Shown: positions 3,545-13,100 of the stretch, in pieces | How the letters are laid out: each line of letters starts with the position of its first letter | Numbering within the stretch: position 1 is the stretch's first letter | From: Neoscytalidium dimidiatum | Lineage: Eukaryota > Ascomycota > Dothideomycetes > Botryosphaeriales > Botryosphaeriaceae | Assembly: GCA_037367355.1 (NCBI GenBank) | Contig: CM074699.1 | Coordinates: forward strand, 2,356,001-2,420,000 | Direction of reading: 5' to 3' | Length of the DNA: 64,000 nucleotides | Notes under the pieces: model-generated | The model's database searches: none | Told to the model about the DNA's origin: nothing | The model's input: the letters and a program-made list of their open reading frames with translations, nothing else | Position numbers and translations under genes: made by a program

Positions 3545-6500
3545 TCATTTGACGATCCTGCACACCAGGTCCTGTGCGTCCACTGAGTCGCCTTCCTTGA
3601 CGCCCAGCGAGCCAATCTTGCCCGAGTGCGGTGCCGAGATAACCATTTCCTAGATCCACTATCAGCGACTCATTCCGCCAGGAAGTCAATGTGATCCTCG
3701 CTTCATCACTTACCATCTTCATCGCGCTGAGCACAGCAATAGGATCGCCCTTCTTGACGTCTGAGCCGTCGTGCACACGCACCTCCACCACGACACCAGC
3801 CATGGGCGAACCGACTTGGCTGCTGTCGCTGCTGTCCGCCTTGGGTCTGCTGGTGTTCTCGATTGCTGCGTGCTTGTCGTCCACCGTGACTTGCCTAACT
3901 TCGCCGTTCATCTCGTAGAAGACCTCGCGCTGGCCCGTCTGCTCTGACAGCGGTCCGACTGCGAGGAGCTTGAGGATAAGCACCTTGCCCTTCTCGAGCT
4001 CCACATGGAATTCTTCGCCGATTTCGGGCCGCGACAGGAAGAAGCGAGTCGGCAGTACCGACAAATCGCTGTACTTCTGCTGGAACTTCTTGAAATCCTC
4101 GAATACCTTGGGATACATGACGTAGCTGGCAACATCCGTCTCGGTCGCCCCGCCAAACTTCTCCTTCAGCTCCTTACGAATCTTTTCGAAGTTGATGGGT
4201 TCCAGGTACAAGCCCGGACGCTTGTCCATCTTGCGGCGGCCACGCAGAGCTTGCGTGCGCAGCGGCTCAGGAAAGCCACCGTAGGGCTGGCCCATGAGAC
4301 CCTCGAAGAACTCCAGCACAGAGCTGGGGAAATCGAGCTGCTCAGCCTTATTCAGAACATCATCGTAGCTGAGGTTGTTCGAAACCATGAACTGAGCCAG
4401 ATCGCCAACGACCTTGGAAGTTGGAGTGACCTTGACGATATCACCCAAGATGTCGTTGGCCTCCTCGTAGGCCTTCTTGGTTTGCGCCCACTTCTCACCC
4501 AGGCCTTGCTGGGAAGCCTGGAAGATGAGGTTGGTGAGCTGGCCACCAGGGATCTCGTGTTCGTAGACCTCAGGGTCCGGGCCAGTGAGGCCTGCCTCGA
4601 AAGGCGAGTAAAGCAGACGGAGCTGCGCCCAGTAAGCATCAAGATGGCGAATGACGTGGCTGTCGAGGCCAGGGTCGTGAGGGCCGCCCTCAAGCGATGC
4701 AAGGATGGCACCAATGCTAGGCTGCGAAGTCATGCCCGACAAGCTGTCAATAGCCGCATCTACCGCGTCGGCACCAGCCTGAGCGCATGCGACCATCGAT
4801 GCCACACCAGTACCCGCCGAGTCGTGAGTGTGGACATGAATGGGAAGATCAGGGTATTTCTCCCTGATGGCACCAACGAGCATGGTCGCAGCCCTGGGCT
4901 TCAAGACACCCGCCATATCCTTAATACCGAGCACGTGCGCCCCCATCTTGACGATTTTGTCCGCGAGGTCCATGTAGTAGTCGAAGGTGTACTTCTTCTT
5001 CTTGGGGTTCTGTTCAGAATGTGTTAGCGTTTGCTCTGTTGTCATGTTGTCGTCAATGTAAATTTGTGTTGCAAGGTAAGAAATCAGTTTTTGCTGGGTA
5101 GTGCTGGCATGATCGTAGAGACTGCAATAGTAGAAATAGCAAAATAGGACAGCGTCCAACAGTATCTCGATGTGGGGAGATTTTAGACCGTCGACCCTGG
5201 GTCTAGAGGCTTTTGGCTGGCTTTGGTGGCATGTTTCTTGCTTGTAAGGTGATTGTTGAGCTTTTGCTTGGTGGTGCCAGTATAGTCGCAAAGACCGCAA
5301 TAGTATCTCCGACAGACACGATTGGCAGAATGTAAGGTCTGCTTCGCGGGATCCTTAACGACATTGGTGACGCCGGCAGCCTTGTCGATATGCTTCTTCA
5401 GGGTGTAATGGTAGTTCAGTTGATTTCTCGCTCCGAAACTGACATTGCAAATTTTGCAAGCCCACTTGCGCAAAGCCATGTTCTTGTCTCTTGTTCTCTT
5501 CGCACTCGCTGCTGTCCTCTCTGGGCTACGTGTTGCAGCGTCCCTCCTGGAGTTCTTCAGTTTCCTCTCGGCATCAATGACCTCGCTTTGCTCAAGGGAC
5601 AGGCTGTCGAGAGTCCCTGGGATGCCATCTTTGAGAACGTTGTGATTGCAACAGCCATCGTATTCCATTTTTCTCGAGATCCCAGGAGCAAAGATGAGGC
5701 AGTTTGTAATCTGTGGTACGAGACACCATGGCCCACAGCATGATGGAAAAGGTAGCCTCAAGGAGAAGAATGAGGGCACGCAATGGGAGCTGCTTCAAAC
5801 CAGTTCGAAGGGGCATCTAGCAGAGGAGTCCTTTGTGCGTCACAAAGTAGCCGTCGTCCAAGGCGAGCTTGACAAACTGAGGCAGATTTCTGCCTTTATC
5901 ATACTGCTTGAACCGGGTCGCTAGACCGTACACTGCTTCGACACTCGATCCGATGTAAATCTTAGATCGCCAACCAGACTTCTCGAGCAAAGCCAGGTAG
6001 ACGCCTCAGAGCTTCTTGCCGTCTGTTGGCAAGGTCTTGTAACAGGCAATGGTCGGAGGAGATGGATATTGGACGACGTCTAATAGGCCAGGAGCGAAGG
6101 CGAGAAGCGAATCGGAGAAGAGTTGTAGAAGCACGGCTTGAGAAGGGAGTACCGTGACGTAAGCGGGATTTTGCTGGCTGGTAGGAGTGAGAGTAAGAAA
6201 CTTCCGGCTATGCAACAGTATGAAATTGAGTGTATCGGATTCCGTGGAAGACATCTTGGCCGCGAATTGCGCTGTTGTTGTGTCGACAGAGTGATCTCGA
6301 GAGGCAGAGAACGCCCATGACTGAAGGCTGCCTGGAGGCAGCAGCTCCTCTGAGGAAAGTGTATGCTATGATGGGTGCGTTGAGGTTGTAGTCTAGGAAA
6401 GCGCAGGCCGGGAAGGCCCACGCCGGGAAGGCGCCGGCCAGGAAGGTGTAGACTAGGAACGCCAACACCACCACCAGCTGTTGAAAGTCGGATAAAAAAA

Positions 6501-9096
6501 TGAAAAGGAAAATGGAAAAGCAATAAAAGTGTACACCTACCAAAAAGTCCCCTGAATAGCAAAACGTACCCTCAGCGACACCACCGGCCTTCAGCACGGC
6601 CTTGATGCCGACCTCCAGCTGTTCGACATCGTTCAGGGCGTCGAAGACACGGAAAATATCAACACCATTCTTCTTAGCTTGCTCGACAAAGTGATCGATG
6701 GCGTTATCCGGCAGCGAAGAGTAAGCTACACCATTGGCGCCTCTGAGGAGCATCTGGAACGGGATGTTGGGTACCAGCTTCCTCATCTGCCTCAGCCTAT
6801 CCCAAGGATCCTCGTAGAGGAAGCGCATAGCCACATCGAAAGTAGCTCCGCCCCAGCACTCAAGCGCCCAGGCATTGGCGTACGCATGGCTAGTCTCCTT
6901 GGCGACATTGAGCATGTCGACGGTCCTAACCCTTGTGGCAAGAAGAGACTGATGGGCGTCACGCCAAGTGGTGTCCATGATTAGACACCCCTTGTTTGCG
7001 CGAACTGCCTTGGCGAAGCCCTCCGGGCCCTTCTCCAGGATAACGTTCCTCCAGCCTTGCTGACACGGCAGAGAGGCATCGAGGGTTTTACCCTCACCAG
7101 TCTTGAGTTCAGGAATCTTGATCTCTCCCTTGAACTTAGGCTCGCCGATCTGACCCTTGATCTGGCTGCCGTTGACAGCAAGATCGCCGAGATAGGACAG
7201 GAGTTTCTGGGCACGGTTCTGACTGCCAACGAGAGCGAAGAGCTCGGGAGTGTCATCGATGAACGTGGTCCAGCACGTTCCCTCGATAAATACAGGGTGG
7301 GTAAGCAGCGAAGCCAGGAAGGGAATGTTGGTCTTCACACCACGGATGCGGAACTCCACCAGTGCACGGAGCATCTTTCTCCTTGCAATTTCGTAAGTAG
7401 ACCCATGGCAAGTGCACTTGACCAGCATTGAGTCATAGTGAGGAGTGATAACGGCGCCAGCAAAGCCATTGCCACCATCCAGGCGTACTCCGTTACCGCC
7501 TGCAGAGCGGTAGACCTCTATCTTCCCGGTGTCCGGAGAGAAGCCTTTCGCCGGGTCCTCGGTGGTGATACGGCACTGAATGGCGAAGCCGCGGGTCGAG
7601 ATCCGGTCTTGGGTCAGACCAAGTTGGGCAAGAGTAGCGCCGGCGGCAATCTGGATTTGGGCAGCGACGATATCGATTCCGGTAATTTCTTCGGTGATGG
7701 TGTGCTCGACTTGGCTGTTTCGGAGTCAGCAGCTGCCTAAAACGGTAGTCCCAAGCTCCTGTTTCACTTACATTCTAGGATTGATCTCAATGAAGTAGTA
7801 TCTGTTTTGTTGATCAACCAGGAACTCCGCTGTTCCCGCGTTGCGATAGTTGACCGACTTGGCGAGCTTAACGGCATCCGCCAGAATCGCGTCGCGGGTC
7901 TCCTGCGGCAGATCCTTTGCAGGCGCAATTTCAACGACCTTCTGGTGACGACGTTGGACGGAGCAGTCGCGCTCGAATAAGTGCACCACGTTTCCGTGGT
8001 TGTCGCCGAGGAGCTGGACCTCAATGTGCTTGGGCTTATCGAGGAAGCGCTCGACAAAGACGGTGCCATTGCCAAAGGCAGACTTGGCCTCGGAGGTGGC
8101 ACGCTCGAATGAGTCCTTTAGACTCTCCTGATCGCGGACCACTCTCATACCACGACCACCACCGCCAAAGGCGGCTTTGATGATGATAGGAAAGCCATAC
8201 TGGTCGGTGAAAGCCTTGACCTCTTCGTACCTCTCGACAGGATCTGGTGTTCCGGGCACGACGGGGACGTTGCACTTGATAGCTAGCCTGCGGGCTGAGA
8301 CCTTGTCTCCGAGGGCGTCGATGGTGCTGGGAGTGGGTCCGACGAACTGGAGTAGGCAAAGATGTTAGCAATCATCTTGCACAACGACGCGACGCGCATC
8401 GCTGCATGTGAGACGGTTCCACAATTATGTAGCTGTTGGGGAGCTTGGCAGCCCGCCGAGAACCGTGCTGTCTCGTCCGCAGCGCCGGCGGCAGAAATAC
8501 GTCCCGCGGCGCTAGCGTGGTGGAGAGCGTGCTTTTTTTTTTTTTTCCAGTCATAAGGCAGGGCGGGCGGATTTTGCCAACACGGCGAAATTGGTCAACT
8601 TACAATCAACCCAGCCTTCTCAACGTTGCGAGCGAACTCGGCGTTCTCAGACAGAAAGCCATAGCCTGGGTGGATCATGTTGACATCGTGCTGCAGCGCA
8701 ATCTTGATGATCTCGTCGCCGGCCAGATAGGCGCCGACGGGCGTGTACTGCCCCCGCTTGCCGATGACGTAGGCCTCGTCGGCCTTCTGCCTGTGCATGC
8801 TGAGCCGGTCCTCGTAGCTGTAGACAGCGACTGTGTGCAGCGACAGCTCGTGTGCGGTACGGAAAATACGAATGGGGATTTCTCCTCTGTTTGCAACTGA
8901 CCGGTCGTCAGCTCTCCTGCGGGCGCCGGCTGCGCAGTAGGCGGGGCTTACCCAGAATCTTCTTCAGCTGCATGATGGAACTGTTAGCGCGCAGTCGCTG
9001 GTGCACCGAGTTGCGCTTGTCAATGTGGTCATCCTCGGAGTCTTCGATGGCCACGGCGGCCTGGCTGACGGTCTTGTCGACCATGAGGTCCGTCAT
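3545..9096 (-). CDS. pyc: Pyruvate carboxylase
   Basis: Cytosolic biotin enzyme that carboxylates pyruvate to oxaloacetate, using ATP and bicarbonate, to refill the TCA cycle and feed gluconeogenesis. Six exons: 8952-9096, 8604-8896, 8346-7772, 7714-6541, 5009-3714, 3649-3545. They sum to 1,195 aa, the normal fungal length. Visible landmarks: [14 protein letters not shown] near residue 46-60; the ATP-grasp glycine loop GGGGRGMR near 207-214; FIEINPRIQVEH across intron 3; the carboxyltransferase start [10 protein letters not shown] near 584; and the biotin site AMKM with the acceptor lysine at about 1160. Introns 1, 3 and 5 are 55-64 nt and intron 2 is 257 nt. Intron 4 (5010-6540) is 1,531 nt, splits GDFL from NPKKKKY in the carboxyltransferase domain, and contains a nuclease/zinc-finger pseudogene. 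The ATG at 9094-9096 is the first in frame. Confidence 0.97.
5050..5135 (-). repeat. Decayed extra copy of the second C2H2 finger
   Basis: Read on the minus strand, this stretch aligns without gaps to the second finger of the neighbouring pseudogene: [16 protein letters not shown] against [19 protein letters not shown] identity looks like roughly 70 percent by eye. The first zinc cysteine remains; the second cysteine and both histidines read tyrosine. It lies after the pseudogene stop and about 40-50 bases upstream of the intron acceptor. Confidence 0.75.
5183..6254 (-). pseudogene. GIY-YIG nuclease-like / C2H2 zinc-finger pseudogene inside a pyc intron
   Basis: Lies wholly within intron 4 of pyruvate carboxylase, on the same strand. 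From an ATG at 6252-6254 it reads a short N-terminal region, then a GIY-YIG-like domain: GVYLALLEK, ten or so residues, KIYIGSS, then a conserved-looking arginine ([10 protein letters not shown]), [13 protein letters not shown], and a glutamate in LLLEATF. Two C2H2 fingers follow, both with spacing CX2CX12HX5H (CKIC...H...H and CGLC...H...H). It is broken by an in-frame TGA at 6006-6008, a TAG at 5817-5819 and a frameshift at the five-base A run at 5668-5672. Both stops sit where tryptophan codons would be one G-to-A change away (inference). I recall uncharacterised fungal proteins pairing these domains, but could not search. Function unknown; a nuclease or selfish role is inference only. Confidence 0.8.
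6388..6462. repeat. Five-unit 15-bp minisatellite in pyc intron 4
   Basis: Five adjacent 15-base units. The outer two share gtagNctaggaaNgc and the inner three are GC-rich variants carrying a ggaagg-type core. On the minus strand it is open and would encode related pentapeptides ([25 protein letters not shown]). Confidence 0.75.
8533..8546. repeat. Poly-T run in pyc intron 2
   Basis: Fourteen consecutive T on the plus strand, so poly-A in the transcript, within the 257-nt second intron of the carboxylase gene. Confidence 0.9.
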
Positions 9097-10197: not shown

Positions 10198-13100
10198 CTA
10201 GAACGCACGGTAGCCTGTGGCTTGAGGCGCGATGCCGTTGGCCTGCCCATACGGAGCCGGTGAAGGCGCGCTCGGGCCCTGCGTGAGCATGAGGCGAGAC
10301 GCGCCGAGTATCGGCGTGTTCTCCTCGTTCTTCTGCTGGGACTGCTCCTTCGCCTTGCGCTCCTCGTTATCCTTCTTGAGCAGCTCAATCGTCGCGGCCT
10401 GTTGCGCCAAGAAGTTGATCATGTATGGCTGCAAAACATTAGTGCTAACCCAGACAAGCACGCCATTTGAGCAACTTACCATCGTGAAGTCGTGAAGACC
10501 GTTACGCCAGGAGACCTCCAGGATGACGTCCGGGCGGATCAGGTCGTAGCAAGCGTAAAGCATGCCAACGTAACATTCGCGGCTGCCGATATCGACAAAC
10601 TGCACCACCGTCAGCTGAGATGTGTGGAGAAGGAAATGAGTCATAATACGTACGTAGCGAAGCAGCTCCTCAACAACCTCCGGCTTGCCGGACATGGCTG
10701 CCGTCTCAATGGCATCCTTGAACAGCTTGTCTTGCTTGGACAAAGCAATGGACTTGTCCCAGCGCTTGTTCTTGCGGTAGATATTGGCGGCGATCTGCCG
10801 GAAAAACACCAGGTCGTGCTTTTCGAGGCGCTGTGCGAGTTCAACCGCGTCGTAGTTGTCGTAGTTCTCGACCGAGTCGCGGAGCGTCTTGTAATCCTCC
10901 TCCTCAATGAGCAGATCGTTAATGGCATTGTTCACAGCCCTCTTGTTCTGCGTTTGGACGTTGAGCAAGAATGGCTTGATGAGAGGGATATTGTCGGACT
11001 TCTCGAACATGCGAACAACACGATTAACGTCAATTCTAGGAGTGAGCGCTTGGAGTAGATCAGTGAGCAGAGAAGGCTGTTCCTGCAGGTAGAAGTTCAA
11101 TGCGCGGTAGTAGATCTCCAAGTTAGCCACCTTGACGATCGTGTCCTTGAACGAGTGATGTTCCCAAGCATCCGCAGCACGCTCCATCATGGCAAGGGCT
11201 GCGTTATCCGGCTCGTCGTAGTGCACGTACAGGAAGACCAATTCGGGCCAGAGGTGTGCCTCCTCGCAGGCGCGAATCATCTTAGGAATGTTAATTCGAG
11301 ACCAGAACAGACGGAGGTGCTCCATGACACGTTCAGGATGATACTTGGACAGAGCAATGCCGAGCTCGGTGAACATGCCCATATGAGCACGCTCCAGACC
11401 AAGGCCAGCTTCGAGAAGAGCTATGAGCTCGTCGAAATAACCATTCCTCTCATACTGCTTGACAAGGTCTGAGAGCTCTTCGGCGTGGACAATGAGGTTG
11501 AGACCGCAGATCTGCGCGAGGCGGAATTCCTTTTTAGCAACACAGGCTTCATTGACCTGCTTCCAGACCTTAGTGCTGTTGGCCTTACGAGCGCATTCAA
11601 CAGCAGCTTGGTAGTCTTCAAGGTGCACCAGAGTGGTAGCAAGCTTGGCCCAGTTCGAGATGCTGGTAAAGAAGATCTTCGCAGCCTCATGGTATCCCTC
11701 CTCGTAAGCCTTGTCGCCAGAAGCTTCTACGTCCGCGACATTGGTGGCACGGAGGAAATCTTCAAGTTCAGCAAGCTGGTTGGTACGAGCGTAGCAGAAA
11801 GCCAACGCAGTGTCGATAGGAGGCTCACGCAAAGTCTTGCGAGCCATCTTCAGAAACTTGATGAGATCGTCATCCTTGCCCGCATGCGTGGCAATTTCAA
11901 TGACTTCATTGTAGTTTGAAGGATCTTGAGCGCGAATGTACGACTCAATAGAGTCGGTGACACGCAGGCCATCTAGCTGAGCCTTGGCGACCTTACTCCA
12001 AACCTCAGGCAGATCGACACGATCAGCATATTCCTGAGCACGATCAATGCTGACAATGTGGTCAACCAGGACATTGACGGCCTCAAGGTGGTTGTTGTGC
12101 TTCTTGTGGATCTCGAAAGCTTCGTCATACATGCCAAGCTCAATACACTGCGTGGCGATGTCGTCTGGAGTGTAGTTTTCGAGCTGTTGAATGTAGCCCA
12201 TCAACCGACCCTTGTCAGACTTAGCGGCCGTGAGCATAAGCAGATTTTGAAGAGTTGGGTTGTCGCTGAAAGCAGACGGTTCCAGAATGATCTTCTCCAA
12301 AAGCTCGATAAGCTCACCAGGGAGATCATTGCTAATGAAAGCCTTGACAGCGATAGAGACCTTGTCAGGCTCTTGAGACTCAGGCACAGCAGTGGCAATG
12401 ACCTGGTCGACGACTGACCTCCGGAACAAGTTGTTGGAGCTCAGCACATAATCCCAGATCTCTGGATCAGAACGCTCAAGCAAATACCTGGCCTGAGCCT
12501 TGAACATTGAGTTCTCATTGGTGATGTTAATGAGCTCAAGGTCGTTCTGGCCCTTCTGATAGGCAATGAAGGCAAGGTTTGGGTCACGGGCCTCGCAGTA
12601 TTTACCAACAGTCAGTGTGTCGTATTGATCGTTCTCGCGCAGAAACTTCTCCGGATTGTTGTTGCTATCGATATAGATCTTAGCCAGCGCATTGTAGACA
12701 GCCTGCTGTTGGTTTCCACTAGCGAGAGTGGCCTCAAGGAAGGGCAACAGAAGCTTGAGGCGGTTGCGGGTCTCCACCTCGGAAACCAGTTCATCAATAG
12801 GGATCGACGCAGGGTTGACCGATTGCAGTAGGCCTTTGATGATGTTCTCGTCACAGTCAACATCGAGGAGACCACCGATAACAGCTGGAGTCCGCGAGGG
12901 GTTTACGCGCTGGACGTAGACTTCGATTGACTTGAACTGTTGTTGCTTGTACAAATACAATACCAAGTCGTGGATGAAGTTGAACCGGTCGCAGACAATT
13001 ATGAGCGGAAGCTGTTCCGTTAACCTGGCCTCCTTGAGGAAGTTCTTCACCTTCTCCGGATCGAAGAAGTTGTTTTCGCGGCAAATCCGCTCGACTTCAT

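Follow-up and report, generated by a model that had tools for sequence, protein, structure and literature searches.

A decayed nuclease gene in a spliceosomal intron of the pyruvate carboxylase gene of Neoscytalidium dimidiatum and its probable place in a homing family of fungal nuclear genes

We analysed a window of 64,000 nucleotides from the fungus Neoscytalidium dimidiatum (contig CM074699.1 of assembly GCA_037367355.1, positions 2,356,001 to 2,420,000), which carries the gene for pyruvate carboxylase (PYC) on its minus strand. A genome search finds this gene as a single match in 43.76 Mb. Its intron 4 spans window positions 6540..5010 of the minus strand, is 1,531 nt long and interrupts the frame in phase 0 with GT-AG ends, exactly as the first-pass annotation of this DNA had placed it; we read it directly and determined the boundaries by script. 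The remaining four introns range from 57 to 257 nt, so that the upper bound of the range given in that annotation, 55-257 nt, stands and the lower one does not. By script, introns 3 and 5 measure 57 nt (7715-7771) and 64 nt (3650-3713); introns 1 and 2 measure 65 nt (8887-8951) and 257 nt (8347-8603), hand-counted from printed boundary sequences. The spliced protein aligns without gaps to human pyruvate carboxylase over the intron 4 junction, the frame being restored. The parts of the gene around this intron are as follows.

6541..7714, minus strand: PYC exon 5' of intron 4, ending ...CYSGDFL (DNA reading; PYC domains in Pfam; gap-free junction against human PYC)
6535..6540, minus strand: intron 4 donor, GTAGGT (direct reading and script)
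5023..5027, minus strand: branch-like CTAAC of intron 4, 12 nt before the region of the intron's last base triplet (direct reading and script)
5010..5013, minus strand: intron 4 acceptor, ACAG (direct reading and script)
3714..5009, minus strand: PYC exon 3' of intron 4, starting NPKKKK... (DNA reading; alignment to human PYC)

Canonical spliceosomal splice sites were thus read for intron 4 of the window alone. No group I or group II signature and no ribozyme was found in it: Rfam, searched at E≤10 over 4900-6700, returned only two unrelated sub-threshold matches. The 5' part of the intron contains a short tandem repeat at 6395-6446 (15-nt unit, 3.5 copies).

Intron 4 holds the near-full-length relic of a gene for a protein of about 350 amino acids, on the strand of the host gene. 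Four reading-frame pieces align in order to one protein of 352 amino acids, P0001, which rules out a chance reading frame. The relic has its own ATG (6254-6252) and its final stop at 5183-5185; it is broken by in-frame stops at 6006-6008 and 5817-5819 and by one frameshift between 5673 and 5692. The broken, near-complete gene that had been described from the letters alone is therefore confirmed. The pieces are listed below, with E-values from two-sequence comparisons with P0001.

6006..6254, minus strand: piece 1, ATG and N-terminal region, up to the stop at 6006-6008 (43% identical to P0001 1-76, E 2e-18)
5817..6005, minus strand: piece 2, GIY-YIG core (GVY...KIYIG...R...QY), up to the stop at 5817-5819 (56% to P0001 84-145, E 7e-24)
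5675..5816, minus strand: piece 3, helix that carries the conserved Glu, as far as the frameshift (53% to P0001 148-194, E 4e-15)
5183..5692, minus strand: piece 4, linker and two C2H2 fingers, up to the stop (53% to P0001 188-346, E 1e-60; Pfam)
5069..5132, minus strand: degenerate additional finger-like stretch past the final stop (72% identical to the second finger, 5242-5305)

The last of these matches the second finger at 46 of 64 positions, against 31-37 in 10 letter shuffles. Repeat-induced mutation is unsupported as the cause of decay: TA/AT is 0.70 in the relic and 0.64 in the window, and the second index is 1.30 and 1.31, respectively.

A search for relatives returned 266 proteins at E≤1, of which 120 were listed; those with names come from ascomycetes. 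As predicted from sequence, the family combines an N-terminal region, a GIY-YIG nuclease and C2H2 fingers that would bind DNA. The zinc fingers of the relic, already proposed in the first-pass annotation, pass the Pfam cut-offs in piece 4 (zf-met and zf-C2H2_jaz). The GIY-YIG assignment made there is likewise supported, by fold, motif residues and profile-profile comparison, and the similarity on which that annotation had staked its reading was found. Over 133 sequences, the active-site residues are Tyr86 in 132, Tyr100 in 131, Gly102 in 132, Arg114 in 129 and Glu166 in all 133, and all five can be read in the pieces of the relic. The modelled fold of the family is that of GIY-YIG domains, its best match among solved structures being the homing-endonuclease domain of I-TevI.

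Other comparisons gave no such match. At a cut-off of E≤1, the Pfam GIY-YIG profile, PF01541, matches neither the relic piece nor P0001 nor P0002, and it is absent among the 25 families listed, out of 97, for 60 family members. Plain Foldseek gave no match at E≤0.001. Compared by sequence with solved structures, the relic core matched only PvuII (E 0.97), and the family profile matched only zinc-finger proteins among the best 60 of 286 matches. Contigs of viruses and prokaryotes contained 26, 15 and 27 pattern matches, none of them confirmed as relatives. The open reading frames of metagenome members were inspected beyond the nuclease for host exons, with no recognisable host sequence. We also observed a conserved SSS tail, which forms the exact C-terminal end of 31 of the 120 listed proteins and falls within the last 12 residues of 50 of the 120; it stands out against an overall family identity of about 40%.

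Since the protein search filters by length, the query for longer relatives was the family portion of a longer protein. This yielded 13 proteins of 658-1,522 amino acids, all of them NCBI gene models, and in every one the nuclease is fused with a portion of a conserved housekeeping gene, which it interrupts. They represent 12 further loci in six housekeeping genes. Aconitase carries the nuclease in seven species (Vermiconidia, Meristemomyces, Cosmosporella, Zymoseptoria, Diaporthe, Lachnellula and Elasticomyces) that span three classes, Dothideomycetes, Sordariomycetes and Leotiomycetes. PYC carries it in Elsinoe, at a site (GFAGAIIT/PHYDS) that differs from the one in the window (CYSGDFL/NPKKK), and carbamoyl-phosphate synthase in Monosporascus. 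In Fusarium fujikuroi it lies in an ATP synthase gene (two models, both of one locus type), in Neocucurbitaria in PMT1, and Meristemomyces also has it in the gene of a clathrin-repeat protein; ATP synthase alpha and clathrin heavy chain, as exact names within their Pfam families, are our own reading. A further protein, P0031 of Elasticomyces, is nuclease throughout, yet its source name is 'cpa2', a hint that its host gene is the one seen in Monosporascus. The nuclease genes of the relatives are intact, whereas the window copy is degenerate. A clathrin-type gene, of the kind that bears the nuclease in Meristemomyces, directly adjoins PYC here (window 10201-11229).

Fused gene models are a biased sample of the family, and the introns of the relatives are deduced from automatic models. 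All 13 cases are of this kind, and the Fusarium pair additionally takes in a ribosomal-protein gene upstream, as would be expected if annotation had simply fused neighbouring genes, the window case being a lone accident. Such fusion would, however, keep the host protein whole. In none of the 13 models does an entire host protein stand next to the nuclease: every one is interrupted mid-sequence, with host sequence on both sides in three models, the first part only in six and the last part only in four, and the three that have both resume the host sequence beyond the nuclease. The window case, moreover, was read directly from DNA with its splice signals. We regard an artefact of gene models as extremely unlikely.

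To place the nucleases relative to each other, we used a tree of 73 rows, made up of 60 family members, 12 of the 13 models (P0134 was omitted as a duplicate) and the relic. A single branch sets the seven aconitase-borne nucleases apart from the other rows (84/90; present in 82% of 200 bootstrap trees, from a bootstrap that had not settled), and none of 500 shuffles was as low for this grouping. Host-gene labels on 14 rows require 5 changes, the minimum for six genes, which 5 of 1,000 shuffles reached; the host gene of P0031 is taken here from its name. Class labels on 13 rows, with Fusarium entered by its general taxonomy, require 4 changes, reached by 382 of 1,000 shuffles. Two copies from one species lie far apart, in Meristemomyces as well as in Elasticomyces. 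As far as these sequences tell, the nuclease tree tracks the host gene, not the fungal class.

The same tree also holds two points that weigh against targeting by host gene: the two carbamoyl-phosphate synthase rows do not form a sister pair, and proximity between the two PYC rows is weak. Target-gene specificity is supported for the aconitase group and for the host-gene label overall, and not separately for PYC or carbamoyl-phosphate synthase.

Genes nested within other genes are known from eukaryotes, and the relic could belong to a non-mobile host family of nuclease/zinc-finger genes that was put in introns by duplication, is tolerated there and has become a pseudogene here. It is a single dead copy in its genome, and nuclease activity is deduced for the family from sequence, both of which agree with such an origin. 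On the other side stand the 13 of 13 fused models in very conserved genes, with seven in aconitase at three sites and in three classes, together with a tree that groups by host gene instead of class; chance duplication is not expected to choose the same genes repeatedly. We consider a non-mobile nested gene improbable.

Eight insertion sites of the relatives could be read in the genome of N. dimidiatum itself. Five fall in uninterrupted exon (ATP synthase, aconitase site 2, the PYC site of Elsinoe, PMT1 and clathrin), and three coincide with plain introns that have no nuclease: aconitase site 1 (146 nt), aconitase site 3 (54 nt) and carbamoyl-phosphate synthase (428 nt). A search of these three introns for nuclease remnants gave matches at chance level only. 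The site positions derive from gene models, whose ends scatter by several residues, and so 'same site' is residue-exact in some cases and near in others: the three aconitase site-2 models end no more than 7 residues apart, and one site-3 model ends 4 residues before the intron here. The aconitase exons of this genome are 87% identical to those of a leotiomycete and 86% to those of a dothideomycete, values that do not separate the two classes. The carbamoyl-phosphate synthase intron, at 428 nt, is long among the introns seen in this genome.

The first-pass annotation had imagined a mobile element that is tolerated by landing in introns. Its mobility is supported by the mid-gene position in all 13 models, the tree by host gene and the uninterrupted sites; its landing in introns at large is not, as the family seems to target particular genes. 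Mobility could also be that of a transposon, of which the relic would be cargo or remnant, inserted in genes and spliced out: a DNA transposon, an introner or an endonuclease-bearing retroelement of the Penelope-like type. GIY-YIG domains occur in Penelope-like elements, and introners are known mobile introns. However, no reverse-transcriptase or transposase family was found with Pfam in seven frame pieces scanned around intron 4, and none of the four inverted repeats detected lies at the intron ends. The DNA of intron 4 has one match in the genome, which is itself. With the relic, the intron DNA, P0001 and P0002 as queries, no further nuclear copy was found in the genome at E≤0.001; two weaker matches (E 0.05 and 0.11) did not reach that cut-off. 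A transposon origin is, in our estimate, very unlikely.

We think it likely that intron 4 holds instead a decayed homing-type endonuclease gene, of a fungal nuclear family that lives in spliceosomal introns of housekeeping genes. We favour homing because the nuclease is equipped with fingers, its frame lies in a GT-AG intron, the targets are conserved, the tree groups by target and empty sites occur elsewhere. An intact nuclease, encoded on the strand of the host gene by a frame of its own from ATG to stop, would be produced and would cut an allele that lacks the intron, at the point of the coding sequence corresponding to the exon junction. Repair off the intron-bearing allele would then copy the intron, with its nuclease, into the cut allele, from which it may spread. 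The essential host gene would keep working because the spliceosome removes the intron, and the spliceosome would thereby take the role that self-splicing plays for group I introns. After fixation, a nuclease without selection would decay; the window copy would represent this late stage, in which the intron is kept.

Several known systems resemble this arrangement. Spliceosomal homing introns of mirusviruses ('shintrons') were named in 2025 in Nature Microbiology (PMC12768974); according to that paper, they are GT-AG spliceosomal introns with no group I or II features that carry genes for HNH, GIY-YIG (132 genes) or other endonucleases, prefer certain target genes and reside in giant-virus genomes, mainly in virion genes, homing being inferred. 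As far as that account goes, the fungal family shares with them the spliceosomal GT-AG intron (in the window), the GIY-YIG nuclease, the target preference and the inferred homing, and differs by its nuclear housekeeping genes and C2H2 fingers. Two scans of viral contigs gave no relatives of the fungal family, and the mirusvirus nucleases are set beside it by description only.

GIY-YIG homing endonucleases of fungal mitochondrial group I introns are likewise nuclease genes in introns of conserved genes. They ride self-splicing introns, however, whereas intron 4 has no Rfam intron match, spliceosomal signals and a nuclear host gene. Many are found on contig C40 of this genome, outside the window, which accounts for 33 of the 34 GIY-YIG profile matches in the genome, most of them paired at a distance of about 176.9 kb, with frames that are open only if TGA is read as Trp; this contig resembles a large mitochondrial genome that the assembly contains about two times, head to tail. 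I-TevI, of the phage T4 td intron, has an N-terminal GIY-YIG domain (the fold match) followed by DNA-binding parts, but it belongs to a phage group I intron and no sequence similarity to it was detected here. I-TevI also contains a zinc finger. In the nuclear rDNA of fungi and protists, there are group I introns that carry His-Cys homing endonucleases; unlike the fungal family, they are confined to rDNA, self-splicing and equipped with a different type of nuclease. PMC11889510 treats rDNA introns and is not relevant to this case. Introners are mobile spliceosomal introns as well, but come as many near-identical introns per genome, against one copy here. Penelope-like elements differ by their linked reverse transcriptase, missing from the frame pieces scanned.

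In the literature searched, which left subscription journals and bioRxiv mostly uncovered, we found no report of a spliceosomal homing intron in a cellular genome and no use of the term in a second relevant paper, and the fungal family would therefore be a new, cellular variant of these just-described introns. The data are, in our view, best read as a family of spliceosomal homing introns in the nuclear genes of fungi.

Spliceosomal intron gain is a long-standing open question. More tentatively, and with odds somewhat against it, homing endonucleases may drive such gain in the nuclear genes of fungi: the intron would enter an uninterrupted exon as a unit with its nuclease, the nuclease would decay, as in the window, and a plain intron would stay. 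The plain introns at aconitase sites 1 and 3 and in carbamoyl-phosphate synthase of N. dimidiatum would be the proposed end stage. With a family in culturable fungi, in genes like aconitase, and with intact and decayed copies as well as empty sites, homing through the spliceosome would become directly testable. The family would also contribute natural selfish nucleases that bear zinc fingers and have nuclear genes as their targets; and if homing does drive intron gain, some introns of conserved fungal genes would be its scars.
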